NCBI GenBank assembly: GCA_030645475.1
Contig: JAUSMA010000071.1
Location: 124,001 to 188,000 of the forward strand
Length of the DNA stretch: 64,000 nt
Reading direction: 5' to 3'
Source of the DNA: Nitrospirota bacterium
GTDB lineage: Bacteria; Nitrospirota; Nitrospiria; Nitrospirales; Nitrospiraceae
Shown: in pieces, positions 1-16,760 of the stretch
Layout: each line of letters begins with the position of its first letter
Position numbering within the stretch: the first letter of the stretch is position 1
The notes under the pieces: generated by a model
What the model saw: the letters and a program-made list of their open reading frames with translations, nothing else
What the model was told of the DNA's origin: nothing
The model's database searches: none
Made by a program: the position numbers and the translations under genes

Positions 1-550
1 AAAAGACACGGATCGCGTTGCCGTGCTGCTGTGTGCCACTGAGCATCTGTTCTTGATAAACCCGTACATCAATCCGATCTGGCCCCACTTCTGAAAGATC
101 GAAGGAGGACAGTAGTGGAAGTGCAAACCCGTGCAAGTGGCCTTTTCGCGTAATCCACTGTTCTTGTTCCTCTAGTCGCAGCAAGCCCAACCGCTTGCCA
201 GCACGAGTGACGCAAGGATTGGCTCGCAATCTAAAACGAAAGCGCTGGCCGATTGCGAGTGCATTGAGTTTCAAACGACTCTTCACATCAACAGAAGGAT
301 CGGTCTTCGCTAGCCATCCTTTTACACCTATGCCCTCCCAGTCTGGGATCGTCCGACTCTGAACGAGAACCCGTGGACATCCATCGGAACCGGTCTCCGG
401 CTCAAGCCGCCACAGAATTTCTCCTTCCGGGCATTTACGATCCGGAGGGCTAAATGCGCGACACAGCGTGGCATGGAGTTGATACGGGTCTGCCAGATCG
501 CGCCGGGCCTCACGACAGCGTGGGTCGAGATGGATTCTATGCAGAAACAT
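1..550 (-). CDS. cas6e: Cas6e (CasE/Cse3) crRNA endonuclease, 3' end outside window
   Basis: Type I-E CRISPR RNA endonuclease that cuts the repeat hairpin of pre-crRNA and stays bound to the crRNA 3' handle in Cascade. The reading frame opens at the ATG complementary to 548-550 and stays open to the left edge, so about 183 N-terminal residues are visible and the C-terminus is missing. The N-terminus reads MFLHRIHLDPRCREARRDLA and then DPYQLH. Tyr23 and His26 fall exactly where the catalytic Tyr23/His26 of Thermus Cse3 lie. The start overlaps the end of cas5e by 14 bp, which implies translational coupling as the last interference gene of the operon. cas1, cas2 and an array would be expected beyond position 1. 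Confidence 0.9.
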   Translation of the reverse strand, partial: MFLHRIHLDPRCREARRDLADPYQLHATLCRAFSPPDRKCPEGEILWRLEPETGSDGCPRVLVQSRTIPDWEGIGVKGWLAKTDPSVDVKSRLKLNALAIGQRFRFRLRANPCVTRAGKRLGLLRLEEQEQWITRKGHLHGFALPLLSSFDLSEVGPDRIDVRVYQEQMLSGTQQHGNAIRVF

Positions 551-1217
551 GCGTCACCCCCTGAGGGAAAGGAATCCATTCAGAGTGTACAAACCGCGCG
601 CCGAAGCGCCGTTCGGCAAACGATGACAGCGGTTGGTCCATTTTGAGTACGCCCGAACCGTCCTCGGACTCGAAAGAGACCAATAACTTCTCAGGCAGTT
701 CCTCCCATTTCCGCAGCGTAGCGATCCACGGGCACCGCGCCAAAGTCTCGCGCAACGGTACATCCTGCACAGCGTTCTCCATCCAGATCGACTCGGAGGG
801 TACATAGGATTTTCTGCCCAGAGCTAGAGGCCAGACGGGATCGCGCAGTGCAGCATGTATTCGTTCCAAAAACGTACGGTCTTCGCCTACTAACCCAACC
901 AGGAAGGCTGCGTCGGCCAGATAGTCTCGCGTAGTCACAGCCGTATCGTGGATCTTCGACCTATCAGCAGAAATGATGTGCTGCGCAGTCTGGTAATCAC
1001 GCTTTGGAACTCCCGGCCGGTCATGACGGACACCCATGGAAAGTTGCGTCAACGGTTCCAGATCATCCCAATTCTCGCGATCGATTCCCATTGCAGCGGC
1101 AAGCAGGCCCACAACACCTGACTTGCTGGGTTCCTTCCCTGTATCGCGCTGATCGAAGCGACTGGTCGTCCCCCACGATTGCATGGGGCCTATGAATCGT
1201 AGCAACAGGGTGGACAT
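537..1217 (-). CDS. cas5e: Cas5e (CasD), Cascade subunit
   Basis: Cascade subunit that caps the 5' handle of the crRNA in type I-E systems. The 226-residue product starts MSTLLLRFIGPMQSWGTTSR, the characteristic Cas5e opening, followed by the Gly-rich SKSGVVGLLAAAMG segment typical of the family. Length matches known CasD proteins (about 220-250). It sits 3 bp after cas7e and overlaps cas6e by 14 bp, in the standard I-E order. It lacks the catalytic residues of the processing Cas5 of type I-C; in I-E the processing role belongs to Cas6e. Confidence 0.95.
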   Translation of the reverse strand: MSTLLLRFIGPMQSWGTTSRFDQRDTGKEPSKSGVVGLLAAAMGIDRENWDDLEPLTQLSMGVRHDRPGVPKRDYQTAQHIISADRSKIHDTAVTTRDYLADAAFLVGLVGEDRTFLERIHAALRDPVWPLALGRKSYVPSESIWMENAVQDVPLRETLARCPWIATLRKWEELPEKLLVSFESEDGSGVLKMDQPLSSFAERRFGARFVHSEWIPFPQGVTHVSA

Positions 1218-1220
1218 GAT

Positions 1221-2375
1221 TTACTCCTTCACAGCATGGAGACTTTTCTCCAGCAGTTCCTTCAACGTGCTAACCGATGTTCCGAATCCATCAAGTTTGG
1301 TCTCCGTGAGGTTCAACACAAAGGTTTGTCCGTCACCACCGTACACAGCGTTCAGTTTTTTTGCTTTCTCGACAAGTCTCTCCGCAGACTTCTTGGTAAA
1401 CGATTCATCCTTGCCCACACGAAGAGCCGTTTCAAAGGCGTTGGCAAGGTTGCGCGGCGCAGTGTTGCGACGCACCGACACAGCCACAAACTCCGACGGA
1501 TTATGCGCCGCAAAGGTGTTTTGTTTGCCGGTTGGCTCTGCGATCACAAAGCCTTCAAGAAATGCCTTCAATCCTCTTTCCGAAAGTTCTGCGTCGCCTT
1601 GAAGATTGTCTTTTAATTTTTCCCAATCAACCACCGCATAGCGATAAAAGCAGGCCGAATTGAATTCCACCGTTCCCATCATGTCAGCGCCAGCCGTGTC
1701 TTCTGGTTTCAGATCGTCCACAGCCGTATAGAAATCGAACTCCCGTTCGACCGCATGGGTCGAAATCGCGTGGGCAACCTGACATGCGGCGTGCTGATTC
1801 TTTTCAGGCATATCCGCCAGCATGCGCCCAAAAAGCGCCACATCCACGGCTTTACCGCCGTTGAAGATGGAGTCTATGCGGTCATGAACTTCCTTCGGCG
1901 CACTGCCAGCAGCCGCCTTTTTCCCTTTCCCTTTGGTCTTTCCACCAGCTTCTATCGCCTCAGGAACAATCTGATCCCAAAACTGATGAATCGCGTCGGC
2001 CAAAGCTGTTATTTCTTTCTGACCAAGAAAGAGCAGGTATTGAGTCTTTCCCCCTTCAGTAGCTTTGAGTTTGACGTATGACAAGGCGATTTCCGCCTTG
2101 GCCAACGTTTCGTCCTTTGCGCGCTTATCACCCAGCAGATCGGCAATGGCCTGATACACCCGCTTGGTTCGCACCGCGAGTTCATCGGGACTAAAAAACC
2201 CCTCGCTTTTCTTTTCACCGAAATAGCTGCGCACTGCCCGCTTGAGGCACTGGCTAGAAACCCGCGCACGGCGGGTACCGCCGAACCAAGCATCCTTGGG
2301 AGCACCAGTGTCGTCGCGATTCAGATTCGAGGGGGCGAAATGTTGCAGGGCATGGATCTCGATCAAGGTCTTCAT
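1221..2375 (-). CDS. cas7e: Cas7e (CasC/Cse4), Cascade backbone subunit
   Basis: RAMP-fold subunit that polymerises (six copies in E. coli Cascade) along the crRNA spacer. The 384-residue protein carries the family N-terminus, a conserved [17 protein letters not shown] stretch followed by [13 protein letters not shown], matching E. coli CasC's CLNRDD...FGGKRRVRISSQSLKRA. A low-complexity Lys/Gly insertion ([12 protein letters not shown]) lies near residues 150-165 in what should be the thumb region. The ATGA at 2372-2375 couples it to cse2. Confidence 0.96.
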
Positions 2376-2890
2376 GCGGTTTTCTCCTCTTGGATAGTGG
2401 GTTCTGTTTCCATGTCATCTTGTATGTTTCGGTAAAAATCTTGCGCCCACGCGTTCTGAGTGCGCTTTCTATCGTCATTCCAATACACAAGACCTGTCAG
2501 AAGGGCCTCGAAGTCTATGGGCTGATCTTTGAGCAGAGCAACCATCTGACGCAGATGGTGAGGCAATTGATCATTATCGGAATCAAGCAACGTGATGAAC
2601 CGGCGTTCGGTGCTGGTGGAGCCAGTTGCCGCCCAATGAGCCGCACATGCCTTTCCAATAGTCATCGGGGTACCGAGACCGCCTTCCCGCCAGTGGGCTG
2701 CCCAAAGACCAGCTACGAGGTAAAGCATTTCCCTCCGCCAGGAATTATTCTCACCCTTCAAGAACGGCTCGACATAGGGATAAGCAGGTACGAAGGCTCC
2801 CGGATCAAACGCCAGGCTACGTCGCAACACCGCCCTGACCTTGGTATCTTTCTTGTTGAGGCCTTCCAGCCACTCAATGAATCCACTCAT
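2372..2890 (-). CDS. cse2: Cse2 (CasB/Cas11e), Cascade small subunit
   Basis: Small alpha-helical Cascade subunit, present as a dimer, that stabilises the R-loop and the displaced strand. The frame is open further upstream, but the start is placed at the ATG complementary to 2888-2890. There it forms a 4-bp ATGA overlap with the end of cse1 and gives a 172-residue protein beginning [20 protein letters not shown], the expected Cse2 size and start. The longer frame would read about 60 residues of out-of-frame cse1. The family's conserved basic [10 protein letters not shown]...[12 protein letters not shown] region is present. Confidence 0.93.
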
Positions 2891-4440
2891 GTCCCCTCCA
2901 TCGCCGGTGTGAGTTTGAGGATTTCCTCGTCGAGTTCTTTCAGCTTCGCCCGTACAGGCCCTTCGGCTTTTACCAGCGCTCTGATGGCCCAGGCATCGCC
3001 CATGGAGACTGAGGCGCGATGCTGTTCCCATGCTTTTCCCAGAGTATCCCGTACTGATTTGAGCCACTGAGAGTGGATGCCTTCAGAGTCATAGTCGGGA
3101 GTGTATTCGCTCAGGATGTGGTGAAAGGCGGACTCAAGATTGGACCAATAGATATGAGTTGGAGCGGCGGCATCAGCCATTGTGCTTATCTGTGCTCTCT
3201 CCTCTTTTCTTAAACTTGTGCTCTTCTCTCTGTGGCCACGAATTAAAATGAAGCGGTAGAAGTTCCATAGGGCAGAACGCAATACACTTTCAGTTTCTTC
3301 TGTCGCAACAAGAATCGACCGAATGGAGGACCTGACATCCACCTCCCTGGACAACGCTCGAGGCAATACAAATAGTGTGCTGCGCCAGAAATCCACCTTT
3401 GCCTGACCACTTTTGGTCTTTTGTCCACACACATAAACTCCAATTGGCCATCTATCTTTTTCAGATCGGCAGAGTGAGATGGCATTCTCGATCACTAGTG
3501 GGGTTTTGCTGTTCCCTCCTGGCAAGACCGAATCAAAATCTCGCCAGAAATCTCTATTCTCGCGAAATTTGAGAGGCACGAGTCCCAGTGATTGATTTTC
3601 CTGATAGGAAAGCATCGGATCAGTGAACGTAGTGCCATCGGTTCTACTCACCCCTGACGCAAATCCTAGGCGCCGAATTGCGCCACATCCTTCATCCTGT
3701 AGAGCTATTGTGCGAGAACGCCATGTATACAGATCAGCATATCCACAAATCGTTCTGCGCAGCCCGCGCCTGAGGGCTTCTACAGCTTCTGGCTTCCTTT
3801 CCCATAACGCCGAATCACCCTGGCTAATGTGCTTGGCCTGCGGCTTGAGACATAAGCACAAGGTTTCGTGAAGAGTTGCCCCTAGCACAATGAAGAAAAC
3901 CGCTCTGGCGGAAGGTGCGTCTAAAGGCTGAACAAATTCGCTCTTTGCAACTGCCAGGTCAAATGTTTGCGCCGCAAGCAGCCAACGTGCAGCAGCGGAA
4001 AATGCAATAGGGCCGGGACTCTCAACATCCAGGTGATCAAATAGAACCTTTGCATTATCTGCGTTATGCTCTGCAGCAAGTTTTGACCAAGCTTTCCATT
4101 CTTTTGGGTGAAACCCTGGAATTTGTCCGAACGGATATTCTTCATCAAATAGCCAGAACCGATCCCGCCACTTGTTCAGATAGGCCGTGATCTGCTCATT
4201 TGGTAGCCCATCCCTGAACAACTTCTTGGCTTGGTCAATGTCAGTAGGCCCCTCCAGCGCACGGTACAGGACGGCAAGCAAGAATCGGTGCAGGCCAGCC
4301 ACAACCAGCGGGGACGGGTCTTCGATAGCCGTGATCTCCTTGGCCCGCATTAGAGTGTCCTGAATACCCAATTCCCCACGGGTCCCGTCGAGGAATCGAA
4401 CCGGAATCCACTTCTCATCAATCAGGCTGAATCGGCTCAT
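2887..4440 (-). CDS. cse1: Cse1 (CasA/Cas8e), Cascade large subunit
   Basis: Large subunit of type I-E Cascade: recognises the PAM, helps open the DNA and recruits Cas3. The 517-residue product begins MSRFSLIDEKWIPVRFLDGT, the typical Cse1 opening (E. coli CasA about 502 residues). It overlaps cas3 upstream and cse2 downstream by 4 bp each, so cas3, cse1, cse2 and cas7e are all joined by ATGA-type overlaps. No inactivating lesion is visible. Confidence 0.95.
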   Translation of the reverse strand: MSRFSLIDEKWIPVRFLDGTRGELGIQDTLMRAKEITAIEDPSPLVVAGLHRFLLAVLYRALEGPTDIDQAKKLFRDGLPNEQITAYLNKWRDRFWLFDEEYPFGQIPGFHPKEWKAWSKLAAEHNADNAKVLFDHLDVESPGPIAFSAAARWLLAAQTFDLAVAKSEFVQPLDAPSARAVFFIVLGATLHETLCLCLKPQAKHISQGDSALWERKPEAVEALRRGLRRTICGYADLYTWRSRTIALQDEGCGAIRRLGFASGVSRTDGTTFTDPMLSYQENQSLGLVPLKFRENRDFWRDFDSVLPGGNSKTPLVIENAISLCRSEKDRWPIGVYVCGQKTKSGQAKVDFWRSTLFVLPRALSREVDVRSSIRSILVATEETESVLRSALWNFYRFILIRGHREKSTSLRKEERAQISTMADAAAPTHIYWSNLESAFHHILSEYTPDYDSEGIHSQWLKSVRDTLGKAWEQHRASVSMGDAWAIRALVKAEGPVRAKLKELDEEILKLTPAMEGT

Positions 4441-7079
4441 TCGCTCTCCTTTGCCTCATACACCAATCCCAAGTCTTCATCGAGTCGCACGGTGGCATCT
4501 TCTGTCCACCGTCCATCCACGTTCAGCCGCAGTGGAAAACAGTTGCGCAGGAGCGACGACTCTTTCCAACCTTCTGGCACTCCCAACTTTCGGAGTTGCT
4601 GGACTACCCCCTTGCGCGAAAGACTCACAGCTCGCAGAAACCACGCTTTGCACTGTACGAAGTCCGGCGTCGTCTCAGAGCCGAAACCGTCTTCCGACCA
4701 CAATGGAATAGCGACGACCGAGTCTTCGCCAAGTCTGGTCTGGGCCATGAGGGTTCGATGCACGCCCGGTTCGTCCTCGTCGTAGAGCACGTATTTCGCT
4801 GGATCATTCCAAGATGCGTCGTCAGGCAACCCCATGATGGCCATGTTCGCTTGCTGACGCTGAGCTATGGCTTCTCCTTCTGCACGCACAGCTTTGTTCA
4901 TTCGCTCATCAAGAAACTCTGGAATTGTTGTCTGTTCTTCGTAGACACTTTGCACCAAGGTATCGATCTCATCCGGCAGCCTCAAGTCCCGTTTCGCCTG
5001 CAAAAGACACCAGGTTCGCAAGAGAACATCTTCCCGGTACACCTTGCCCCACCAAAGAGGTTTTCCGAATGATGGCGGTTCGTCTCCGGCTAATCCCGCG
5101 ACCAGAAGGATCGGTTCGGAAACAGGCCTGGACGTTCGCGCATGTCGCCACAAGCGCCCCGCGCGTTGGAGCACGAGGTCGATAGGCGCGAGGTCGGTTG
5201 CGATCAGATCGAAGTCCAGATCCAGACTTTGTTCCACTACTTGGGTCGCGATGAGGATTTTTCGGCCAGTTCGATTACCCCCTTCTCCAAAGGTCTCTAA
5301 CGCCTCCTCCTCGCGTTTCTGTCGCCTGTCTGCTGGGAAACGTGCGTGAAAGAGAAAAATTTCCGTTCCATCGGAGAGCCGCTTGCCAAGACGCATGCCT
5401 TCGCGCTCCAGAGACTCGCCATCAGGGAAAAGCCGGTACAGCTCCTGCGCACGCTGCACCGTATTGACCAGCGCCAACCCCATTCCGCCACGGGTAAGAT
5501 GCTCCTCTAACGCAGTGCGCAGACCAGACAAGTCCGGTGAAATTGCTTGTAGCCGGACAGTCTGACGACGCGCAGGATCGGCCTCGAAATGTTTCTGGTA
5601 TACCTTCTCACCGGGACAGAAGATGGAAAGGCGTGGGTATGGCTTCTCCGGTTCCGGCAAGTGAGAACCAACTACACCTGCCAACTTGCGACGAATCGAC
5701 GGAGACAGGGTCGCGGAAAGAAGTACCACCGATGAGCCCAACGCTAAAAGCCAGCGAAGTAGGTGAACCAAAAGCGTACCCGTGTAGGCATCGTAGGCGT
5801 GGATCTCGTCGAAGACCACCACTCGATTCGCAAGACCCCACAGTCGCACAAAGTTGTGTCGCACCGGCAGAATGGGCAGCAGAGCCTGATCTATCGTGCC
5901 GACGCCATATTCTGAGAGCAGCGCCCGCTTTTTATTGGAAAACCATTCTCCCGCGCGAACCTCGCCGCCCGCTTTGGAGTCGTGTATGCCAGACACTTTC
6001 AGGCCCTGGAAGGTATCGTTCAACAACGCTCCGCCATGCAGTAGCTGTAAGTCGAGTGGTCGATTTGTTCCTTGGCTCCGCAGAAATTCGAGCGTTCGCG
6101 TAAACATGGCATTGCCCGTGGCCTTGGTCGGCAAGGCTATGTATAAACCGCGATGCCCAAAACGTCGCTGAAGTTCCAAATGTGCAAAAAAAGCCGCCTC
6201 GGTCTTGCCTTCACCCATGGGAGCTTCCAGCAGTAGGATGGCTGGCATCTTCAAATCAGCCAACGCATCAGCTACCGCCTGCTGTAAGGGTCGTGGAGCG
6301 AATTCAAACACTTCCTCGAAAGACTTTGCCTCCGTGCTGAGCGGAGTTCTGGGTTCCCACCTAAGGCTATCTAGAGCCTGATTGGCTCTGATGCGGCGCT
6401 TTTGAAACCAATCATGAAGATCATCGCAATCTTCAGCGGTTCCAAAAGGAAACCAATCCTCGTTGGAGCCGATCCAGTCGGCAAAGCTTGTGAGGCCCGA
6501 CAGCAACATGAAATCGGGGCCAGTAAGAGTCTGCTTCGTGGGAGTCATGGTGGGATTGAGAACCGCCAGGAGTAGTTCCACGAGACCGCGGCGCGCCTCA
6601 GTCCATTCGTCTTTCCCCAACGCACGCCTATCGCCCATCAGACGATCAAGGATGCTTGGGGAAGCCCTCTCTCCATGATGACACCCCACCGCATCGGCCA
6701 CTAGTTCCGCCAATTCTTCCGGCCAGCTATTCTTCTGTAAAATCTCCGACAGGGCAATCTGGCTTACAAAGGCATGGTTGATCTCTGTATTTGGACTCCG
6801 TCCAGCAGCCATGCCGGACAGATTCTTCCACTTGCATTGAAACCCGGGACAGGCCTTTCCCAAGTCATGGCAAGCGACCACGAGCAAAAGCCACGCGCGG
6901 GCATCCTCCCACGTCATTCCCAGAATTGCCGCCATCCTCTCGCGCGTTGACTCCGGTTCTCGCTCCAGGATGGCTCCCGCACTGGCAGCCACATCCAACA
7001 TGTGGAGAATAAGAGGATGCCACCGACCATCAACGCCCTTGGAAGTTTTCGCCCAATGGTTTGTCAGTGTTTTGTTCAT
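4437..7079 (-). CDS. cas3: Cas3 HD nuclease-helicase (type I-E)
   Basis: Single-strand DNA nuclease and 3'-5' helicase that degrades target DNA after Cascade recruitment. The fused 880-residue form has an N-terminal HD domain (His21, the HDLGK motif at 71-75, CHHGE, and a later Asp in SFADWIGS). An SF2 helicase follows: Walker A APMGEGKT near 288, DEIH box VVFDEIHAYD near 420, LLSATL, and motif VI QRAGRLWRH. All metal- and ATP-binding motifs look intact. A GTG lies one codon upstream at 7082; the ATG at 7079 is preferred. First gene of the cas operon; about 65 bp of intergenic DNA separates it from the repeat protein upstream. Confidence 0.95.
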   Translation of the reverse strand: MNKTLTNHWAKTSKGVDGRWHPLILHMLDVAASAGAILEREPESTRERMAAILGMTWEDARAWLLLVVACHDLGKACPGFQCKWKNLSGMAAGRSPNTEINHAFVSQIALSEILQKNSWPEELAELVADAVGCHHGERASPSILDRLMGDRRALGKDEWTEARRGLVELLLAVLNPTMTPTKQTLTGPDFMLLSGLTSFADWIGSNEDWFPFGTAEDCDDLHDWFQKRRIRANQALDSLRWEPRTPLSTEAKSFEEVFEFAPRPLQQAVADALADLKMPAILLLEAPMGEGKTEAAFFAHLELQRRFGHRGLYIALPTKATGNAMFTRTLEFLRSQGTNRPLDLQLLHGGALLNDTFQGLKVSGIHDSKAGGEVRAGEWFSNKKRALLSEYGVGTIDQALLPILPVRHNFVRLWGLANRVVVFDEIHAYDAYTGTLLVHLLRWLLALGSSVVLLSATLSPSIRRKLAGVVGSHLPEPEKPYPRLSIFCPGEKVYQKHFEADPARRQTVRLQAISPDLSGLRTALEEHLTRGGMGLALVNTVQRAQELYRLFPDGESLEREGMRLGKRLSDGTEIFLFHARFPADRRQKREEEALETFGEGGNRTGRKILIATQVVEQSLDLDFDLIATDLAPIDLVLQRAGRLWRHARTSRPVSEPILLVAGLAGDEPPSFGKPLWWGKVYREDVLLRTWCLLQAKRDLRLPDEIDTLVQSVYEEQTTIPEFLDERMNKAVRAEGEAIAQRQQANMAIMGLPDDASWNDPAKYVLYDEDEPGVHRTLMAQTRLGEDSVVAIPLWSEDGFGSETTPDFVQCKAWFLRAVSLSRKGVVQQLRKLGVPEGWKESSLLRNCFPLRLNVDGRWTEDATVRLDEDLGLVYEAKESE

Positions 7080-7146
7080 CACCTAGCCATTGGGATCAAA
7101 TGATTCTGCATTGTGAGGATGCGCCCTATAAATCAACTGCTATGCG

Positions 7147-7509
7147 TTACCGTGTCTTTTGCCTTCCGCTCCCTCCATCCAACGGCGCAAAGGGCACGTT
7201 GGGGTTATACTTGTTCGCCGGGTTCAGCGGATTGTCCGGATGATATTGGTTCACCGGATTGAACGGATTATTCGGGTTGTATCTGTTGACCGGGTTTTCG
7301 GGATTGTCCGGATCGTAACGGTTGACGGGATTGAACGCGCTGTTGGGGTCGTAGGCATTGGCCGGATTGCGCGGGTTGTCCGGTTGATACTGCATGGCCG
7401 GGTTGAAGATGTTGTAGTCTCGCTCGTATCGTTGATCGAAGCCCATCTCGGCATTGCTCGGCGTGGTCCACAGACACAACATCGTCGCAAGCAGCATGCT
7501 GTATTTCAT
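7147..7509 (-). CDS. Secreted protein of 12-residue Asn/Pro repeats
   Basis: A 120-residue protein with a Sec-type signal peptide (MKYSMLLATMLCLWTTPSNA, likely cut near residue 20). A body of six tandem 12-residue repeats follows at residues 36-107, consensus NPxNxYxPxNPx, then a short basic tail. Real gene: an AAGGAGGCAATC ribosome site precedes the ATG, and the repeats keep their residue pattern while the DNA varies. The Asn-Pro-Tyr spacing suggests an extended or beta-solenoid-like extracytoplasmic repeat. I know of no assigned function. It lies on the same strand just upstream of cas3 and downstream of the WYL regulator, so it may share transcripts with the cas operon. The opposite-strand frame of 130 codons is a repeat artefact. 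Confidence 0.75.
   Translation of the reverse strand: MKYSMLLATMLCLWTTPSNAEMGFDQRYERDYNIFNPAMQYQPDNPRNPANAYDPNSAFNPVNRYDPDNPENPVNRYNPNNPFNPVNQYHPDNPLNPANKYNPNVPFAPLDGGSGRQKTR
7189..7404 (-). repeat. 36-bp tandem repeat, six units, inside the Asn/Pro protein
   Basis: Six in-frame copies of a 36-bp unit encode NPAMQYQPDNPR, NPANAYDPNSAF, NPVNRYDPDNPE, NPVNRYNPNNPF, NPVNQYHPDNPL and NPANKYNPNVPF. The units differ at many bases but hold Asn, Pro and Tyr at fixed places, which points to selection on the protein rather than a recent DNA slip. Confidence 0.85.
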
Positions 7510-7671
7510 GATTGCCTCCTTGTCGGCAGATTCATCGTACCGTCCCTATGATACTGGACGACTGTGACATCGAAGGTCCTTATGGAGACATGCAACTTCG
7601 CCGCAATACTCGCTCCCTTTCGATACCTCGACCAGATCGCGGGTGACATTCTGGGTCAATCCAGAAAGAAG

Positions 7672-7752
7672 GTGCTCTGGTCTATTTGGTCTGTTGTGTT
7701 GGTTGAACGGGCCAACCCAGATAGACCAGACGAACCAGACAGACCCGTTTAC
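7672..7752. repeat. Imperfect long palindrome built on TCTGGTCTAT/ATAGACCAGA
   Basis: The intergenic stretch contains TGGTCTATTTGGTCTG and, about 30 bp on, AGATAGACCAGACGAACCAG, which pair to form a long imperfect stem with an inner GTTGG/CCAAC pair. It lies just after the end of the WYL regulator gene (minus strand), so it could act as a terminator or be a member of another dispersed repeat family. No other copy was noticed in this window. Confidence 0.45.
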
Positions 7753-7762
7753 ACAGGTCCTG

Positions 7763-8749
7763 TCACAGGGCCTCGAACATTTTCCTGGCTTCCTGCTTGA
7801 CCGCCGTGCGCAATGAGTCCGGCCCGACCACCTTCACTCCGCTGCCGAAACTGAGCACCCACCCCACCACTTCACGGCTGTTCGCTACGGCAAGCGTCAT
7901 CTGCATGCGCCCTTTCGATAATCGTTTGAGCTGCTGACTGGGATGCCAGATACGATCTTTGACCCAGGCGGCTGTCGGCTTATCGAATTCCAGCTCTACG
8001 GTCATGCGAGGCCCGCGCATGACGGTGAGGGAGTCCTCGATAAATGCATCGAAGTCGAAATGGAGAGGTATCTGGTAGGGCAAGTCGGTCGGCGTCACGG
8101 ACTTGATGCGCTCCACCGCGAACATGCGCGGCTCGTTGCGCAGATGGCAGTAGCCGACGAGATAGAGCCCGCCCGAAGCGTACCAGAGTCGGTACGGATC
8201 GACCTCTCGGCGCGTCATCCGGCCACGGGACGCGGAGTCGTACCGCATTTGGATGCGCATCTTGTGCACGATGGCCTGCGTAATCCGCTCAACCACCTCA
8301 CGATGATGCCGATAGCGTTTATGCGGGCCGAGTCCGACCGAAAAGGTGTGTTCGAGTTGCTGCGCCAGCTCCAATCCCTGTGGGGTCAATGCCGCTGAAG
8401 CTTTGCCCAGTGCCGATTGCAGCGAGGTGTGAAGCTCCGTCCCTTCCAACGGCGCAATGAGGCGTCGGCTGACCGTCAAGGCCATGAGTTCGGTGGGAGA
8501 GAGGCGAAGCGCCGGGATGTTGCGGAACCCTTCAAGGAGTTTCCAGCGCACCTGACCGTCGACACGCTCTGTGACGAGAGGCCAGCCGGTCGCTTCAATG
8601 GCGGCAAGGTCTCGACGGAGTGTGCGCGGCTGGCGGGTTGAGCCAGGGTCCAGCGCCCGGGTCAATTGTTCGAGTGTCAATCCCTGCCGGGAGGCTTCAA
8701 GCTTATGCAGAATCACCAATTGGCGAACGGCTTGATCGTTTCGTGGCAC
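7763..8749 (-). CDS. WYL-domain HTH transcriptional regulator
   Basis: 328-residue regulator with an N-terminal winged helix-turn-helix (residues about 8-65: LTLEQLTRAL, then RTLRRDLAAIEATGWPL, the HTH_11/DeoR-like pattern). A WYL domain follows near residues 150-230, with the tell-tale PYRLWYASGGLYLVGYC and FAVERIKSV segments. A WCX-like C-terminal extension completes it. WYL domains bind ligands, often nucleic acids, and such regulators are recurrent partners of CRISPR-Cas and other defence loci. Here it is on the same strand, about 1.7 kb upstream of cas3, with only the Asn/Pro repeat gene between. The start is a GTG with GAGAGG upstream. Control of the cas operon is inference from position. 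Confidence 0.88.
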   Translation of the reverse strand: MPRNDQAVRQLVILHKLEASRQGLTLEQLTRALDPGSTRQPRTLRRDLAAIEATGWPLVTERVDGQVRWKLLEGFRNIPALRLSPTELMALTVSRRLIAPLEGTELHTSLQSALGKASAALTPQGLELAQQLEHTFSVGLGPHKRYRHHREVVERITQAIVHKMRIQMRYDSASRGRMTRREVDPYRLWYASGGLYLVGYCHLRNEPRMFAVERIKSVTPTDLPYQIPLHFDFDAFIEDSLTVMRGPRMTVELEFDKPTAAWVKDRIWHPSQQLKRLSKGRMQMTLAVANSREVVGWVLSFGSGVKVVGPDSLRTAVKQEARKMFEAL

Positions 8750-9113
8750 CCAGCGCCTCTCAATGGTGATTTCCTAAGGGCGACAGAGGATACCTGCTTT
8801 GCCATGGTCACGCAAGGAACCCCAATTCTGGCTATGGAGAACAGGGCGAGAAGGGCGGGACGCGGGACAGGTCTCTCTGGTTGCGGGACAGATCCGCGCA
8901 GCAGATAGATTTCTAGCAGGATACGGAAAAACTCGGTTGACGCATTCCGTATGGTGTCGGTGGCTGAATAGTCTCAGGATGCGCACGAAGGCCGTTCAGC
9001 GAGCGAATACCGACGATTTGAACCATGAACGCGGAACGCTGAATGAACATCATTTCATCGATCATTGCTCACGTTCAGCGTTTCCTAGCGGACTTTTCCA
9101 GCATCTTGTGAGG
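8750..9113. other. 364-bp gene-free stretch with nested inverted repeats
   Basis: No convincing gene. It holds (a) GGGACAG-type short repeats around 8860-8890; (b) an ATACGGAA...TTCCGTAT inverted pair near 8920-8952 beginning AGCAGGATACGG, resembling a partial repeat end; and (c) the degenerate structured repeat at 8975-9108. Confidence 0.5.
8975..9108. repeat. Degenerate copy of the CAGGATGC structured repeat
   Basis: Left end CAGGATGCGCACGAAGGCC then GTTCAGCGAG matches the left end of better copies (CAGGATGCTCAAAAAGGC, then GTTCAGCAAG). The right end GCGGACTTTTCCAGCATC matches GCGGACTTTTTCAGCATC. The centre differs from the other copies, yet still forms its own inverted pair (GGAACGCTGAA with TTCAGCGTTTCC). 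Confidence 0.6.
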
Positions 9114-10124
9114 CTATTCTCTGACTGGAACGGCTTGTGGGGTTGGCGGGGGTTCAGGGGTTGGAATTGTCACTGCAGTAGGAGCCATTACACCCTTCTT
9201 GAACGGCAGATCGAGCAATGAATAGGGATTCACACGGGCGCCGTTGAGCTTGACGCCCCAGTGGAGATGCGGGCCAGTGGCTCGGCCGGTCGCCCCGACT
9301 TTGCCGATGATTTGGCCCGCGGTGATCAGGTCACCATCTTTGACCAGGATCTCCGACAGGTGGAAGTACATCGAATAGAAACCCAGGCCATGATCGACGA
9401 AGACGCCTCTGCCGGAGAAAATATGATCGACGGTGATGCGGACGATTCCGTCGTTCGTGGCAACAACATCGGCCCCCATCGGTGCACCGATGTCTTCACC
9501 ATTATGGGGATTCCTCGGCTGACCGTTCATAATGCGCACGCTGCCGAAAATCCCGGTGCGTTTGCCGTTCACCGGCTCCACGAAGTTGCTGTGCCAGAGT
9601 TTCAGCCGTGAGTTCTCCGCGAGCGCCTGCTTCACTTGTTCCTGCTCGGCTTTCCAACGGGCCACTGCCTTCTCGTCCAAATCGACCTTCTCTTTAGGCA
9701 GCTTCAGATGCTCGACGGCAAACTTTTCTTTGGCCACCAGCACGTTGAAACTCAGCTGCTTCGCCTGTTCGCCCTGTCTCACTTCAACCGCCAGTTCATA
9801 GGTCCCGGGATCGTCCTGCATGTCGATCCCGAGCAGCCCGACAAAGCCGGCCGGCTCTCCTGGCCTAAACTCCCGAAAAAATGGAATCGTCCGTTCAAGA
9901 AATCTGCCCTTCACTTCCGTCGCCTGCTCTTCGCCCTTCACCTTCACCACCAGCACCTGCCCCTGCTTGCCGCTGTATTGGCCGTCGAGGCCCTTCGGGG
10001 GAGGCGGCGTGTTCGGGAATAACTCGACGGGGAAAACGCTGCACAGCAACACGACCGCCATGATCAGCGTTCGGTCCAATCGTGAAATCCGTAACTGCGC
10101 CTGTTTGAACGCGGTCAGCATCAT
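9114..10124 (-). CDS. LytM-domain (M23) metallopeptidase coupled to pafA
   Basis: Membrane-anchored or exported peptidoglycan endopeptidase, 336 residues. One hydrophobic segment (TLIMAVVLLCSVFPVELF) lies near residues 18-36. A long stalk follows, then a C-terminal M23 domain with intact zinc ligands: His-x3-Asp in NPHNGEDIGAPMG and the HLH motif in GPHLHWGVKLNG. The start at 10124 gives a 4-bp ATGA overlap with the pafA stop; upstream reading would run through pafA. A Pro-rich tail ends the protein. Its place as last gene of the proteasome/PafA unit is unusual and suggests co-expression, though a functional link is unproven. Confidence 0.85.
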   Translation of the reverse strand: MMLTAFKQAQLRISRLDRTLIMAVVLLCSVFPVELFPNTPPPPKGLDGQYSGKQGQVLVVKVKGEEQATEVKGRFLERTIPFFREFRPGEPAGFVGLLGIDMQDDPGTYELAVEVRQGEQAKQLSFNVLVAKEKFAVEHLKLPKEKVDLDEKAVARWKAEQEQVKQALAENSRLKLWHSNFVEPVNGKRTGIFGSVRIMNGQPRNPHNGEDIGAPMGADVVATNDGIVRITVDHIFSGRGVFVDHGLGFYSMYFHLSEILVKDGDLITAGQIIGKVGATGRATGPHLHWGVKLNGARVNPYSLLDLPFKKGVMAPTAVTIPTPEPPPTPQAVPVRE

Positions 10125-11515
10125 CGGTACAGCCGTAGCCCCCCCACCTGTGAGAGCAATTCGTCCACGCGCCGATTCACGGCGCTGAAGGGATCCATAC
10201 AGAGGATCGTTTCTTCCCAGTAGCCATTGAGCTTCAGATAGGTCCAATCCACCGTATAGGAACGATTCTTTGCGCGGGCGAATCGGATGAAATCGCCACG
10301 CACCTTCGCCCTCGTGCTCTGCGGCGGAATCGACATGGCCCGTTGCACCGCGTCCTCCTCCACCACCCGTTCGATCAGCCCTTTCGACTCCATCAGATAA
10401 TACAGGCCACGCGTCCGTTTGACATCATGATATTGGAGATCGAGCAGGAAGACGCGCGGGTCGTCCCAGCCGCAATCTTTCTTGTCGATATAGGATTGAA
10501 TGAGATGCCGCTTGGTCACCCAATCGATTTCTCGCACCAGCTGCATCGGGTCCTCTTCGAGCTTATCGAGGACCATGGCCCATTTCTTCCACACATCGTC
10601 GAGGGCCGGATCGTGTTCTTGTTGAGCCAGATATTCCTGCGCGCGATCCAGGTAGACCCGTTGAACTTCCACGCCAGTCAGCTGGCGGCCATCGTCCAGC
10701 TTGACCTTCCGCTTTAACGTCGGATCGCGAGAAATCTCCCGAATGGCTTTCACTGGGTCCTCGAGTTCCATCCCCGTGACTCCGTACCCCTCTTCAATCA
10801 TCGACAGGACCAACGCCGCCGTGCCAACCTTCAAATAGGTCACGAACTCCGACATGTTGGAGTCCCCGACGATGATATGGAGCCGCCGGTAGCGTTCTGC
10901 ATCGGCATGCGGCTCGTCTCTGGTATTGATGATGCTGCGCGAGGAGGTCGTCGAGGAGGAAGTCTTCTCGTGAATATGTTGGGCCCGTTGCGAGATGAAG
11001 TACTGCGGCTTGCCGGACACTTTTAATACTTTTCCCGCTCCGCTATAAATCTGCCGCGTGACGAAGAAGGGAATGAGCTGCTCCGTGACTTTCCAGAAAT
11101 CGACGTCGCGGCGCATCAAGAAGTTTTCGTGACAGCCGTAGGTATTCCCGAGGGAGTCCGTATTGTTCTTGAAAATGTAGATCTCGCCGGACAGGCCTTC
11201 TTCTCGTAAGCGTTCTTCGGCCGCAGGCAAGCAGGCTTCCAGAAGCCGCTCACCGGCTTTATCATGAATGACGAGGTCCCGGATGTTGTCGCACTCGGGG
11301 GTGGAATACTCAGGATGACAGCCGGTGTCTTGATAGAAGCGCGCCCCGTTCGCCAGAAACGCGTTGGAAGGCCAACTGTTCGGAATGAGGCCTTCAAAAA
11401 TATAGCCCAGGACCTTCTCCATCGGAAGATAGACCCTCCCGTTTGGAGAAAAGATGAGACCATACTCATTCTCCAAACCGAAGATCCGTCGTCTCAGAGG
11501 ACTTGGTTCCAGCAT
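10121..11515 (-). CDS. pafA: PafA-type ligase (Pup/UBact conjugating enzyme)
   Basis: Carboxylate-amine ligase of the glutamine-synthetase-like fold that joins the C-terminal Glu of a Pup-type modifier to substrate lysines. It matches mycobacterial PafA along its length: RRRIFGLENEYGL with the Mg-binding Glu, NGARFYQDTGCHPEYSTPECD, FKNNTDSLGNTYGCHENFL, INTRDEPHADAERYRRLHII and YLKLNGYWEETILCMDPF near the C-terminus. 464 residues. The ATG at 11515 is chosen because a strong promoter lies immediately upstream; an upstream GTG at 11545 would fall inside that promoter. It lacks the extra N-terminal loop seen in its paralogue Dop. Confidence 0.93.
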   Translation of the reverse strand: MLEPSPLRRRIFGLENEYGLIFSPNGRVYLPMEKVLGYIFEGLIPNSWPSNAFLANGARFYQDTGCHPEYSTPECDNIRDLVIHDKAGERLLEACLPAAEERLREEGLSGEIYIFKNNTDSLGNTYGCHENFLMRRDVDFWKVTEQLIPFFVTRQIYSGAGKVLKVSGKPQYFISQRAQHIHEKTSSSTTSSRSIINTRDEPHADAERYRRLHIIVGDSNMSEFVTYLKVGTAALVLSMIEEGYGVTGMELEDPVKAIREISRDPTLKRKVKLDDGRQLTGVEVQRVYLDRAQEYLAQQEHDPALDDVWKKWAMVLDKLEEDPMQLVREIDWVTKRHLIQSYIDKKDCGWDDPRVFLLDLQYHDVKRTRGLYYLMESKGLIERVVEEDAVQRAMSIPPQSTRAKVRGDFIRFARAKNRSYTVDWTYLKLNGYWEETILCMDPFSAVNRRVDELLSQVGGLRLYR

Positions 11516-11527
11516 AGGCGTATGCAC

Positions 11528-11556
11528 AGAATACCAGCAGGCCACGCCTTGTTCAA
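11528..11556 (-). promoter_or_regulatory. Sigma70-type promoter of pafA, near-leaderless
   Basis: On the minus strand TTGAAC (complement of 11551-11556), 17 bp, TATTCT (complement of 11528-11533). The expected transcription start is near 11521, only about six bases before the pafA ATG at 11515, so the mRNA would be almost leaderless. Confidence 0.6.
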
Positions 11557-11589
11557 CAGAAGCACACGATCCGCCGATGAGGTGAGACT

Positions 11590-11804
11590 AGCAGGCTGCG
11601 GGAAAACTATTGCGGCACGATAGAAATGAACAGGTCCGGCGTCTGGGGAATGGGAGAATACCAGACAGGATAGCCGAGCGAGACACGCGAGACTGGCGGG
11701 AAAGGTGAGACACTCGGAATCAGGGCTTGCTCGTCGCGCCTGTCGCGCTAGGCGTACCCGTCGCGCGCTTGAGAGCGCTGGCGGGCTTTTTCAGCATCCG
11801 GCTA
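11590..11804. repeat. Diverged CAGGATGC-type repeat between prcA and pafA
   Basis: The right end GCTGGCGGGCTTTTTCAGCA then TCCGG is a clear family end. The left end (GCAGGCTGCGGGAAAAC) is weak, and an internal ACTGGCGGGAAAGG suggests two nested or partly deleted copies. The outer edge GGCTA supplies the TAG stop codon of prcA (complement of 11802-11804). The only frame starting here, MLKKPASALK..., is 25 codons of repeat and not a gene. Confidence 0.5.
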
Positions 11805-12488
11805 AATAGAGAGGAGGGGTTTGGTATCGGCAGGCGACAACCGTCGAAACCGTCGGCCCTCGCGGGTGCGGTCGAGGACTGCGACTTCCAGCGATTCCAG
11901 CGAGAGCTTCTGGCTTCCAATCTGCTCAAGTGAAGCAATACAGAGCGACAGGGCCTCTCGTAGCTCAGGCGGTTGTGTAAGACCTTTCTCCTTTAACAGA
12001 GCCTGCACGGCCTCCGACTTGCCTCCGATGACCGCAAAGGTCCGCTCATCGATGATGCTCCCGTCGAAGGAAATGCGGTACATCTCGTTCGCATGGCCGT
12101 TATGCCCGACCTGCACCACCAGGATTTCCACCTCTAAAGGCTTCTGCTCCTGGCTGAAAATGGTGCCCAGGCTTTGCGAGTAGCCATTTGCCAGAGAGCG
12201 GGCCGTCACATCTTCACGGCTGTACATGAATCCCTTGAGGTCGGCATGTCTGATACCGGCTTTCCTGAGATTTTCAAACTCACTGTACTTCCCGGCCCCC
12301 GCAAAGGCGATGCTGTCGTAGATCTCGGAGATTTTATAGAGCGAGGCGCTGGGATTCTCCGCGACGAGAAGAATGCCATTCACATATTCGATGGCAATGA
12401 TGGAACGGCCTTTGGCGATGCCTTTCTTGGCATACTCCGCCTTGTCCTGCATCATCTGCTCGGGCGAGACGTAATAGGGCATCGGCAT
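11802..12488 (-). CDS. prcA: 20S proteasome alpha subunit
   Basis: Alpha-ring subunit of the bacterial 20S core. 228 residues, starting MPMPYYVSPEQMMQDKAEYA, which matches the actinobacterial PrcA N-terminus (YISPEQAMRERSELARKGIA). The conserved KGRSIIAIEYVNGILLVAEN and YDSIAFAGAGKYSEFENLR blocks follow. GGAGAA eight bases before the ATG supports the start, one codon after the end of prcB. The stop codon is contributed by the edge of a repeat element. The C-terminus beyond about residue 210 is basic and probably disordered. Confidence 0.95.
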   Translation of the reverse strand: MPMPYYVSPEQMMQDKAEYAKKGIAKGRSIIAIEYVNGILLVAENPSASLYKISEIYDSIAFAGAGKYSEFENLRKAGIRHADLKGFMYSREDVTARSLANGYSQSLGTIFSQEQKPLEVEILVVQVGHNGHANEMYRISFDGSIIDERTFAVIGGKSEAVQALLKEKGLTQPPELREALSLCIASLEQIGSQKLSLESLEVAVLDRTREGRRFRRLSPADTKPLLSI

Positions 12489-12490
12489 GC

Positions 12491-13318
12491 TTAGTTCTCC
12501 TTGGAGCGGCGGGTCGCGATCAACCCGTCATAGATGCTGCGGATTTGCTGCTCTGGCACATCGGTAATGCCGCGCTCGTTCACAATTTTCGCCGTGGGGT
12601 AAATGCCCCGTACCAGATCGGGCCCCCCGGTGCCGACATCATCGTCAGCCGCATTGTACAGGGCCAGCAATGCTAACTTGAGTGCGTCGGGCTCAGCCAG
12701 GCCCCTGAGGAAATGTTCCCGCATCGTATTGCGTGCATCTTTCCCCCCCGACCCGATGGCATGATAATCCGACTCTTCGTACCGGCCGCCTGCGAGGTCG
12801 TACTTAAAGATGCGGCCTTCTGCGCGCTTCACGTCGTAGCCGACATAGAGCGGCATGACGACCAGCCCTTGAAAGACCATCGGCAGGTTGGCCTTGACCA
12901 TCTGCCCGAGCTTGTTGGCCTTTCCCTCACAGGAGAGTTGCACCCCTTCGATTTTTTCGTAATGTTCCAGTTCGACCTGGAACAGCTTGGCCATTTCGAT
13001 GCAGGGACCGGCTGCACCGGCGATCGCCATCGCGGAATAGTCGTCGATCTTGAAGACTTTCTCGATCCGGCGCTCGGCGATTTGAAACCCTTCCGTCGCC
13101 CGGCGGTCTCCGGCAATCACGACGCCCTGTTGATACTTGATCGCCAGCACTGTGGTGGCGTGAGGGACCGTCATCGGTCCGGCTCCTCGCATCGGTTCTG
13201 TCCCGGCCTGAGGCGACAGAAAACCGCTGCGGCCGGCCGGCGTCAGCGCGGGGTGGTGCTGGGTTAAAAAGTCGAAGAAACTCGGGTCGTCGTGGTTAGG
13301 AAGAAATGGCAATTTCAT
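12491..13318 (-). CDS. prcB: 20S proteasome beta subunit (Thr protease)
   Basis: Catalytic beta-ring subunit, 275 residues. The first 54 residues form a propeptide (SFFDFLTQHHPALTPAG resembles mycobacterial SFTDFLRRQAPELLPAS). The mature chain should start at Thr55 in PHA/TTVLAIKYQQG, the N-terminal nucleophile after autocleavage. AGDRRATEG, GIAGAAG and GGPDLVRGIYPTA are conserved. It starts 28 bp after the dop stop, leaving no room for a modifier gene between dop and prcB. Confidence 0.96.
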   Translation of the reverse strand: MKLPFLPNHDDPSFFDFLTQHHPALTPAGRSGFLSPQAGTEPMRGAGPMTVPHATTVLAIKYQQGVVIAGDRRATEGFQIAERRIEKVFKIDDYSAMAIAGAAGPCIEMAKLFQVELEHYEKIEGVQLSCEGKANKLGQMVKANLPMVFQGLVVMPLYVGYDVKRAEGRIFKYDLAGGRYEESDYHAIGSGGKDARNTMREHFLRGLAEPDALKLALLALYNAADDDVGTGGPDLVRGIYPTAKIVNERGITDVPEQQIRSIYDGLIATRRSKEN

Positions 13319-13346
13319 AATGTGAATCGCGGGTGATCCTTCTTCA

Positions 13347-14846
13347 TCATGCCTTCAGTTTCGCCAGCAATTCGTCGACGGTGTCAACCTGATCGAGGAG
13401 GTCACTCGTCAATGATGCTGTCCCTCGAAGCGGGTCCATCAGCGGCACCCGTTTGACCTGCTTGTTGCCAACATCGAACAGCACCGACGTCCAGCTGGCT
13501 CCATAGACCGACTTCGTAAACTTGCTGACACAGCGTCCACGGAAATAGGCGCGTGTTCCCGGAGGCGGGGTGAACTCCGCTCGCGCAATCTCGGCTTCCT
13601 GCACGATACGCTCGATCAGATGACTGCGTTCAAGCGTAAAGTAGAGGCCCTTATCGGGGCGCACGTCGTGATACTGCAGATCCATGAGCCGAATGCGAGA
13701 ATCGTCCCACCCACAGCCCTTGCGCTCCATGTAGGATTCCATCATCTGGCGCTTCGCCACCCAATCTAACTCGCGCACCAACAGCCGAGGATCCTGTTCG
13801 AGCTTATCCAACACGTCTTCCCAGCGAACGAGAATATCTTTCGTAACCTGTGAGAGGTCGTGACAGGCATAGTATCCCATGGCCGCCTTCAAATAGGCGC
13901 GTTGAATCGCCACCGCCGTCGTCGACAGCCCCCCCATGAGTCTAAGCGGCTCCTTCATCGTCAAATCGCGCGACACCTGCTTGATGCCTTGAACCGGGTC
14001 CTCCAACTCGATCTGGGGCACATCGGCACCGGCGTCCAGCAGATCCAACACAATGGACAACGTGCCGACCTTGAGATAGGTCGACAGTTCCGCCATGTTG
14101 GCATCTCCGACAATCACGTGCAGCCGCCGATACTTGGCATGCTCCGCATGCGGCTCATCGCGTGAATTCACGATGGGGCGCCGGACCATCGTATTGAGGT
14201 CGACGAGGCACTCGAAGAAATCCGCACGCTGCGAGATCTGATAATCCGCACGGCTGGTCTCATTCTCTGCGCCGACTTTCCCCGCCCCTGCGAAGATGGG
14301 CCTCGTGACAAAGAACGGCGCCAAAACCTTCACGATGCGCTCGAAAGGCACCGCACGCGACATGAGATAACTTTCGTGATAGCCGTAGCTGTTGCCCTTG
14401 CCGTCCGAGTTGTTCTTGTACAGCACACAATGATCCCGCCCGGTCGCGCGCGCCATCTGTTCCAGGCACTGAGCCAGGATGTGCGCACCGGCTCGTTCGA
14501 ACGCCACGATCTCTCGCGGATTGGTGCATTCGGGCGTGGAGTATTCCGGATGGGCGCCGTCGACGTAGAGCCGGCCCCCATTCGCCAGCACCTTGTTCAG
14601 CTGACGATTGTACTCAGGATTAGGCCGCTCTGGTTCCCCTTCGACCTCGAAGCCGCGCGCATCGAGCAACGGGTTTTCATTTTCATAATCCCAGACCGCT
14701 AACGGAGCCGGCAGGCCAGGATAATGCCCGATGACGGCAATGGAGTTGGACACGGGGTCTGCGGCGGCTGGATCGCGCGATGCAATGCCGAACTCTGTTT
14801 CTGTTCCCAATACGCGGGGAGTCGTCAACGAGTTACATTCCTGCAT
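13347..14846 (-). CDS. dop: Dop-type deamidase/depupylase
   Basis: Paralogue of PafA that in actinobacteria deamidates the C-terminal Gln of Pup and removes Pup from substrates. 499 residues (Mycobacterium Dop 502). Diagnostic: RVLGTETEFGIASRDP with metal-binding Glu; the Dop-specific insert and loop (VWDYENENPLLDARGFEVEG, matching WDYEVESPLRDARGFDL); NGGRLYVDGAHPEYSTPECT; YKNNSDGKGNSYGYHESYLM; and the C-terminal WTSVLFDVG plus LDQVDTVDELLAKL. Mpa ends 12 bp upstream, so the genes are co-transcribed. It is assigned Dop rather than PafA because of the insert and C-terminal motif. Confidence 0.94.
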   Translation of the reverse strand: MQECNSLTTPRVLGTETEFGIASRDPAAADPVSNSIAVIGHYPGLPAPLAVWDYENENPLLDARGFEVEGEPERPNPEYNRQLNKVLANGGRLYVDGAHPEYSTPECTNPREIVAFERAGAHILAQCLEQMARATGRDHCVLYKNNSDGKGNSYGYHESYLMSRAVPFERIVKVLAPFFVTRPIFAGAGKVGAENETSRADYQISQRADFFECLVDLNTMVRRPIVNSRDEPHAEHAKYRRLHVIVGDANMAELSTYLKVGTLSIVLDLLDAGADVPQIELEDPVQGIKQVSRDLTMKEPLRLMGGLSTTAVAIQRAYLKAAMGYYACHDLSQVTKDILVRWEDVLDKLEQDPRLLVRELDWVAKRQMMESYMERKGCGWDDSRIRLMDLQYHDVRPDKGLYFTLERSHLIERIVQEAEIARAEFTPPPGTRAYFRGRCVSKFTKSVYGASWTSVLFDVGNKQVKRVPLMDPLRGTASLTSDLLDQVDTVDELLAKLKA

Positions 14847-14858
14847 AGGTGTGACGTC

Positions 14859-16628: not shown

Positions 16629-16686
16629 GGCGTTACTCGAAGAACGCGAAAACCCTTGCTGCGTCGAGAAGCCCTTATCTGCGCGG

Positions 16687-16715
16687 ATTCTATCATCCGT
16701 TCCTGAGGTGGTCAA
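16687..16715 (-). promoter_or_regulatory. Sigma70-type promoter of the mpa-dop-prcB-prcA unit
   Basis: Minus strand TTGACC (complement of 16710-16715), 17 bp, TAGAAT (complement of 16687-16692). The start point would be near 16680, giving a leader of about 52 bases to the mpa ATG at 16628. Confidence 0.65.
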
Positions 16716-16760
16716 CCGGACCGCAGCATGCGACAGCACGAGAACCGTGACTGAACGACG

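Follow-up and report, generated by a model that had tools for sequence, protein, structure and literature searches.

A shared operator and an Asn/Pro-repeat gene ahead of exchangeable defence operons in Nitrospirota

Introduction

Among the described relatives of the WYL-domain regulator considered here are DriD of Caulobacter and mycobacterial PafBC, both of which are activated by single-stranded DNA (ssDNA), according to the available portions of the reports (PMC12340889, PMC6789036, PMC11804915). The DriD consensus, ATACGAC-N7-GTCGTAT, lies over the -35 region at a fixed distance from the -10 element (PMC12340889). The WYL protein described below aligns with DriD over its full length (PDB 8tp8), and the putative operator at its loci resembles the DriD site in its GAC-N7-GTC core and in its position over the -35 region, mostly at a fixed -10 distance; the outer half-site is GTGAC here and ATACGAC there. 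The DriD targets named in the available part of that report (didA, bapE, recJ, dnaG and the CCNA_03891 operon) are likewise different in being non-defence genes (PMC12340889). PafBC, the best-scoring PDB match of our WYL protein, is described as a heterodimer with a non-palindromic motif (PMC6789036, PMC11804915), another point of divergence.

A second set of comparisons concerns regulators of immunity. BrxR and CapW, like the regulator studied here, are WYL proteins found beside many kinds of defence system (PMC9122601, PMC9122588). As portrayed in the accessible part of its report, however, BrxR functions as a repressor, at a promoter that lies ahead of the BrxR gene (PMC9122601), and our loci differ from both BrxR and CapW in having one operator motif before unlinked operons and a predicted exported repeat gene in first position. 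Another described system likewise places many kinds of immune operon under DNA-damage-linked control, but differs in consisting of a kinase and a transcriptional repressor. P22 SieA, a prophage superinfection-exclusion protein (PMC10883804, available portion), offers an analogy in its envelope-directed product and in the phage carriage that we observed for one of our two repeat families, SANPF. Among the papers listed in a literature survey, which covered titles and openings of abstracts, with operator letters and subscription papers outside its scope, none reports the two repeat families, NP and SANPF, or this regulon.

The NP gene and its neighbours in the window

The window, a 64,000-nucleotide stretch of a Nitrospirota genome, contains a cas operon assigned to subtype I-E by HMM matches to Cas3, Cse1, Cse2, Cas7e and Cas5e (Table 1). 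The first-pass annotation, made from the sequence alone, had drawn attention to a secreted protein of six 12-residue Asn/Pro units lying between a WYL regulator and cas3 on the same strand, and could not place its repeat. Each of these observations held up: the ORF is real and encodes 120 residues, with the signal peptide and the repeat units recognized by eye; the flanking WYL and cas3 genes share its strand and have HMM-confirmed domains; and searches of Pfam, NCBIfam and PHROGs gave this protein, hereafter NP, no meaningful family match. The Pfam and NCBIfam searches likewise gave NP no homology to a Cas family. The genome to which the window belongs has one NP copy, and the ORF ends 64 bp ahead of cas3.

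By eye, the N-terminus is a signal peptide, MKYSMLLATMLCLWTTPSNA, followed by EM, and the mature part consists of a conserved GFDxRYERDYNIFNP lead, the six 12-residue units and, at the C-terminus, a VPFAPLDGG cap; at the DNA level the period is 36 bp. Structure prediction had been proposed as a check for a solenoid. The AlphaFold2 model (mean pLDDT 56, pTM 0.19) has no confident fold and shows no solenoid, and at this confidence speaks neither for nor against one. Kelch-like PDB matches of NP, at E values of about 0.05, were dismissed. Between the WYL and NP genes, the window also carries a 14-bp inverted repeat (TCTGGTCTATTTGG / CCAGATAGACCAGA; window 7676-7730), and GACCAGA-rich stretches resembling it were seen by eye at related loci.

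Table 1. Features of the NP locus in the window (window coordinates).
Feature	Position	Strand	Evidence or remark
NP gene, Asn/Pro repeat protein	7147..7509	minus	ORF with ATG, 120 aa; family alignment, dN/dS, 36-bp period
cas3 (type I-E), first cas gene behind NP	4437..7082	minus	HMM
cse1/casA	2887..4440	minus	HMM
cse2/casB	2372..3067	minus	HMM; ORF as listed, true start probably further downstream
cas7e/casC	1221..2375	minus	HMM
cas5e/casD	537..1217	minus	HMM
WYL-domain transcriptional regulator, DriD/PafBC-like	7763..8749	minus	Pfam WYL 2.3e-22, WCX 5e-18; PDB PafBC 6sj9, DriD 8tp8
Operator-like palindrome AGGACCTTCGATGTCAC, 2 mismatches to GTGACCYYSGATGTCAC	7564..7580	minus	
-10-like hexamer TATCAT, 10 bp past operator	7548..7553	minus	promoter sequence; TANNNT at this spacing in 30 of 46 NP promoters
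Tentative second operator-like site TTGACCCAGAATGTCAC	7643..7659	minus	3 mismatches; near chance for window (3 seen, 1.17 expected)

The WYL protein has an HTH + WYL + WCX architecture, in which the HTH match is weak and the WYL and WCX matches are strong, and regulators of this type are genomically linked to diverse defence systems. Among its solved (PDB) relatives there was no BrxR-named entry. Proteasome/pupylation-type genes, named by eye, adjoin the WYL gene (window 9114-16739), a further likeness to PafBC. They recall the pafA-pafBC neighbourhood of Actinobacteria.

Distribution and conservation of the NP family

Profile searches covered the phylum Nitrospirota and were complemented beyond it by one pattern-based scan of genome_contigs, which finds close relatives; in these searches NP homologues were found only in Nitrospirota. 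Of 175 genomes from the window's family, 93 have a profile match at E<=1e-6; phylum-wide, with E<=1e-3 as the cut-off, 53 of 295 genomes do, six of those outside the family. The 10 relatives from genome_contigs come from records titled Nitrospira or Nitrospirae. Matches by tblastn to 124 phage and 39 plasmid records all fell below 60% identity and were read as compositional; among the 20 records listed for each group, the annotated ones are mostly tail, collagen-like, MucBP and similar proteins. In IMG/VR, 17 stretches fit an NP pattern and none was confirmed.

The mature part of NP has a median dN/dS of 0.11 over 315 pairs restricted to 3-22% nucleotide difference. Across the homologues, third codon positions vary and Asn, Pro and their flanking residues are conserved, a combination which, together with this dN/dS, argues that the NP protein itself has been selected. 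This codon-level evidence marks NP as a conserved coding gene maintained by purifying selection and rules out a chance or low-complexity ORF. Repeat number can vary, as illustrated by a shortened NP with fewer units immediately ahead of an hsdM-like gene (L146:6952-7257). Two genomes that belong to different genera (G283 and G340) share, at L102 and L104, an identical segment of 6.85 kb or more that includes NP and a Dsr1-like gene; this would reflect either recent transfer or contamination. One operator-free paralogue (L052:8928-9783) lies by a tRNA-like stretch and an integrase fragment, by eye resembling the edge of an island.

Defence systems around NP genes

Wide regions around the hits (100 sources) yielded 90 NP genes scoring above 100 bits, the identical L102 and L104 both included; the NP-fragment locus L053 lies outside the 100 sources, and four regions with weaker hits are not among the 90. 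Locus labels are our own, drawn from NCBIfam/PADLOC hits of representatives and from sequence clusters. By these labels 68 of the 90 loci adjoin defence systems (34 cas, 21 type I restriction-modification (R-M), 13 other), and at the remaining 22 no system was recognized or the contig end was reached. The weaker labels are those of L062, L065 and L066, each with a Cas3 fragment only (L066 also with Hma genes), of L061, which is cut by a contig end, of one of the two L050 genes (a PtuA-like match at 2e-8) and of L124 (cluster membership). Unlabelled L111 holds a relative of the SspH of L113 a few kb from NP.

NP precedes cas operons of types I-B, I-C, I-E and I-G as well as type I R-M operons, and also occurs beside Zorya, type II and IIG R-M, Hma, SspH, a Dsr1-like gene and a HEC-06/Orf5-like gene; in the majority of these other-system loci the defence genes lie upstream, with NP behind rather than before them. 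The arrangement is oriented in counts from coordinates only (97 NP hits of at least 100 bits in 175 genomes). Cas3 lies within 10 kb of 31 of the 97, downstream and on the same strand in 31/31, against a rough estimate of about 0.2% for a random point (70 loci, 20 kb each, in roughly 600 Mb), and WYL lies within 1.5 kb of 37, upstream and on the same strand in 37/37. In genus g17, an N6 methylase occurs within 10 kb of 19 of 28 NP genes, downstream on the same strand in 19/19, where about 1% is expected; the chance baselines cover Cas3 and the N6 methylase.

Taken as a whole, the neighbourhoods make the defence link of NP well supported. The link suggested by the first-pass annotation is thus real, at 68 of 90 loci, but is specific neither to type I-E nor to CRISPR: the co-occurrence with type I-E that it had proposed to look for extends to I-B, I-C, I-G, R-M and other loci. 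Those same I-B, I-C, I-G and R-M neighbours rule out NP as an I-E-specific accessory. At 36 of the 70 Cas3 loci neither NP nor an NP fragment lies within 10 kb, so NP is not needed for cas and is ruled out as a constant cas accessory gene. Judged from these NP-free cas loci and from the operator-free NP paralogues, neither partner is obligatory.

A recurring operator upstream of NP

A 17-bp palindrome, GTGACC-Y-CGGATGTCAC, recurs upstream of NP start codons. When the best site within 300 bp upstream was scored against GTGACCYYSGATGTCAC, 58 of the 90 NP genes had 0-3 mismatches, none had 4 and 32 had 5-7. Shuffled upstream sequences gave 5-8 mismatches, and the 300 bp downstream gave 0, 3 and 4 once each and otherwise 5-8, the perfect downstream site lying between NP and a methylase gene at L101. 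Of the 58 operator-bearing genes, cas loci account for 32, type I R-M loci for 21 and other labelled loci for 2, the last 3 being unlabelled, and the 32 operator-free genes divide into 13 with a defence label and 19 without. Homologues with no tie to cas genes, which the earlier reading had set against a defence link, are found for a subset, these 19 genes, although one of them is that of L111 with its SspH relative nearby.

The hexamer TANNNT begins exactly at +11 after the operator in 30 of 46 strict-match promoters and 0-1 times at other offsets tested; the other 16 strict-match NP promoters have no TANNNT at +11. These comparisons show that in the main lineage NP stands right after a predicted GTGAC-N7-GTCAC operator and before exchangeable defence operons, with a mostly fixed -10 spacing.

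Operator copies across genomes

Exact matches to the 17-mer number 75, spread over 43 of the 175 genomes, and the reversed pattern has none. Sixty-seven of these copies precede NP, SANPF, cas3 or a methylase. The nearest tested downstream feature on the same strand is NP in 33 cases (plus one in opposite sense), Cas3 in 21 and SANPF in 8; the remaining copies precede an N6 methylase (4; methylase coordinates were available for genus g17 alone), stand right after WYL (3) or fall elsewhere (5). Since the 17-mer was derived from NP promoters, its 34 NP matches arise by construction, and the cas, methylase and SANPF matches are independent. No NP lies within 12 kb of any of the 21 operator-bearing Cas3 loci, and three of the four methylase sites lack NP, the fourth lying between NP and the methylase. 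The five copies elsewhere involve an operon with cas9 (Cas9 match at E 5e-119), a vWA-SANPF unit that follows an insertion sequence, CRISPR-like repeats recognized by eye, a PDC-S02 gene and what seems to be an old NP site without NP. At L241 in genome G194, the operator precedes cas9, followed by cas1- and cas2-like ORFs and repeats, all of these recognized by eye.

The gene for this WYL regulator is present in 40 of the 43 genomes with an exact operator, compared with 77 of the 175 overall. These operator counts come from related genomes. The window's own genome has no exact 17-mer site; a scan with GTGACCTCGGATGTCAC at up to 3 mismatches returned 11 sites there against 4 in a reversed control, and misses the window's own operator, which is more divergent from that string. 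Given the lack of an exact site and the 11 versus 4 of the scan, no trans regulon beyond NP-cas is visible in this genome. Across the related genomes, a shared operator before defence units is well supported by motif matches.

Exchange of the operon behind a constant front

Same-locus comparisons, drawn by identity as the best 120 of 3044 qualifying alignments, include several pairs in which WYL and NP are kept and the operon behind them differs. Homology in such pairs extends 1.3-2.5 kb upstream of NP and ends within about 40 bp of the NP stop. The window (I-E) aligns with L041 (I-C) at 92.8% over 1701 bp, the match stopping 25 and 6 bp short of the respective stop codons; L061 (Cas3 of an I-C-like cluster) aligns with L082 (I-G) at 90.0% over 2844 bp, L066 (Hma) with L092 (I-C) at 84.1% over 2841 bp, and L065 (I-G remnant) with L093 (another cas operon) at 87.0% over 2846 bp. 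Pairs with the same operon behind NP align further, for example L083 and L091, both I-G.

A WYL tree, built by a quick method without bootstrap from 65 rows (53 labelled, L093 by cluster only), requires 17 changes of system across 10 labels. The window (I-E) and L041 (I-C) are sisters in it with an SH-aLRT of 98, and row L123 is a long, unrelated branch. NP 3' fragments precede cas3 or hsdM at L042, L043, L144, L145, L146 and L148, as old junctions would. An att-like core at the NP 3' end was considered and rejected, synonymous variation dropping only slightly there, at one Pro codon.

SANPF, a second Asn/Pro-rich family

The slot behind WYL is often filled, where NP is missing, by a second Asn/Pro-rich family with a signal peptide recognized by eye, which we term SANPF (EDLGNLSANP...). 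Among 78 WYL genes, NP follows within 3 kb downstream in 39 and SANPF in 12 others; a further 11 have NP at 3-16 kb, and 16 have neither within the distances used. BREX, Ssp, R-M and CRISPR are among the systems behind SANPF. At L079:4794-5060, L080:6037-6576, L139:10293-10760 and L044:3923-4411, SANPF takes the place of NP between WYL and cas or stands before csb1. At L221:3705-4394, L222:14865-15533 and L139:10748-11437, the WYL and SANPF genes are separated by a vWA-like gene (LDESGSMQSCKGA, named by eye) that follows a copy of the operator.

Within the family, 73 SANPF matches reach at least 100 bits, of which 17 lie near a tested feature and 56 near none. In IMG/VR, 70 of 121 candidate stretches encode SANPF relatives, and scanning of the neighbours on six SANPF phage contigs identified portal and terminase-like genes, a lytic tail/endolysin-type gene and a primase. 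Although hhalign gives NP and SANPF a probability of 92%, both are Asn/Pro-rich and we claim no common ancestry.

Discussion

We consider it probable, from gene order and the operator, that NP opens a defence transcription unit under the control of the upstream WYL regulator. In the mechanism that we propose, the WYL protein, as a DriD/PafBC homologue, would bind the operator over the -35 region; ssDNA arising from infection or DNA damage would lead it to activate NP together with the immune operon; and exported NP, like SANPF, would act in the envelope as early phage exclusion, the operon behind it acting inside the cell. The envelope role as an early layer of phage exclusion is drawn by analogy and is a more tentative suggestion than the regulatory part.

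Several features of these loci would also suit readings in which NP has no part in defence. NP could be an ordinary exported protein whose 3' end is a recombination boundary where defence modules accumulate: homology ends at that point in several same-locus pairs (among the best 120 of 3044 alignments), NP 3' fragments occur before cas3 or hsdM, and PIN and nucleotidyltransferase genes recur on the NP 3' side. We regard this as unlikely, as it leaves unexplained both the operator before NP-less cas and methylase operons and the taking of the NP slot by SANPF, and strong DNA-level constraint is absent from the NP 3' end. Somewhat more plausible, if still doubtful, is that the original target of WYL was a stress gene (NP or SANPF) with a function unrelated to phage, behind whose inducible promoter defence operons were then selected. 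The resemblance of the regulator to DNA-damage activators agrees with this, as do the operator's usual position directly before NP, SANPF or the vWA-like gene in the loci read and the missing defence label at 19 of the 32 operator-free NP genes. The operator nevertheless stands without NP at 21 Cas3, 3 N6 methylase and 1 cas9 units, so that defence genes look like direct targets, and relatives of SANPF are carried on phage-derived contigs. That the NP region works as DNA or RNA (a leader, attenuator or set of recombination repeats), with the protein incidental, appears very improbable: the 36-bp periodic DNA between promoter and operon invites the idea, but the dN/dS of 0.11 and the variable third positions beside conserved Asn and Pro speak against it, and window 6900-9100 contains neither an Rfam match nor a terminator-like site.

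Returning to the reading that we favour, NP as the leading gene of a WYL-controlled defence unit, the sequence evidence suggests that one regulator may switch on several immune systems in Nitrospira. Its broadest form, which we offer tentatively, would be a lineage-wide, ssDNA-triggered Nitrospira regulon in which a DriD-like WYL protein and one operator govern CRISPR of types I-B, I-C, I-E, I-G and II, R-M, BREX, Ssp and others, with NP or SANPF as an envelope layer that is kept while the intracellular system is exchanged.

The coordination of many immune systems within one cell is a standing question, and the combination of a 17-bp site with a candidate regulator and a first gene that recurs provides a directly testable regulon. 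It spans CRISPR, R-M and other systems in a lineage of nitrifiers that matters in the environment. Two Asn/Pro-repeat families are also brought to light, whose scanned members have no Pfam match and which are tied to defence or carried on phage contigs.
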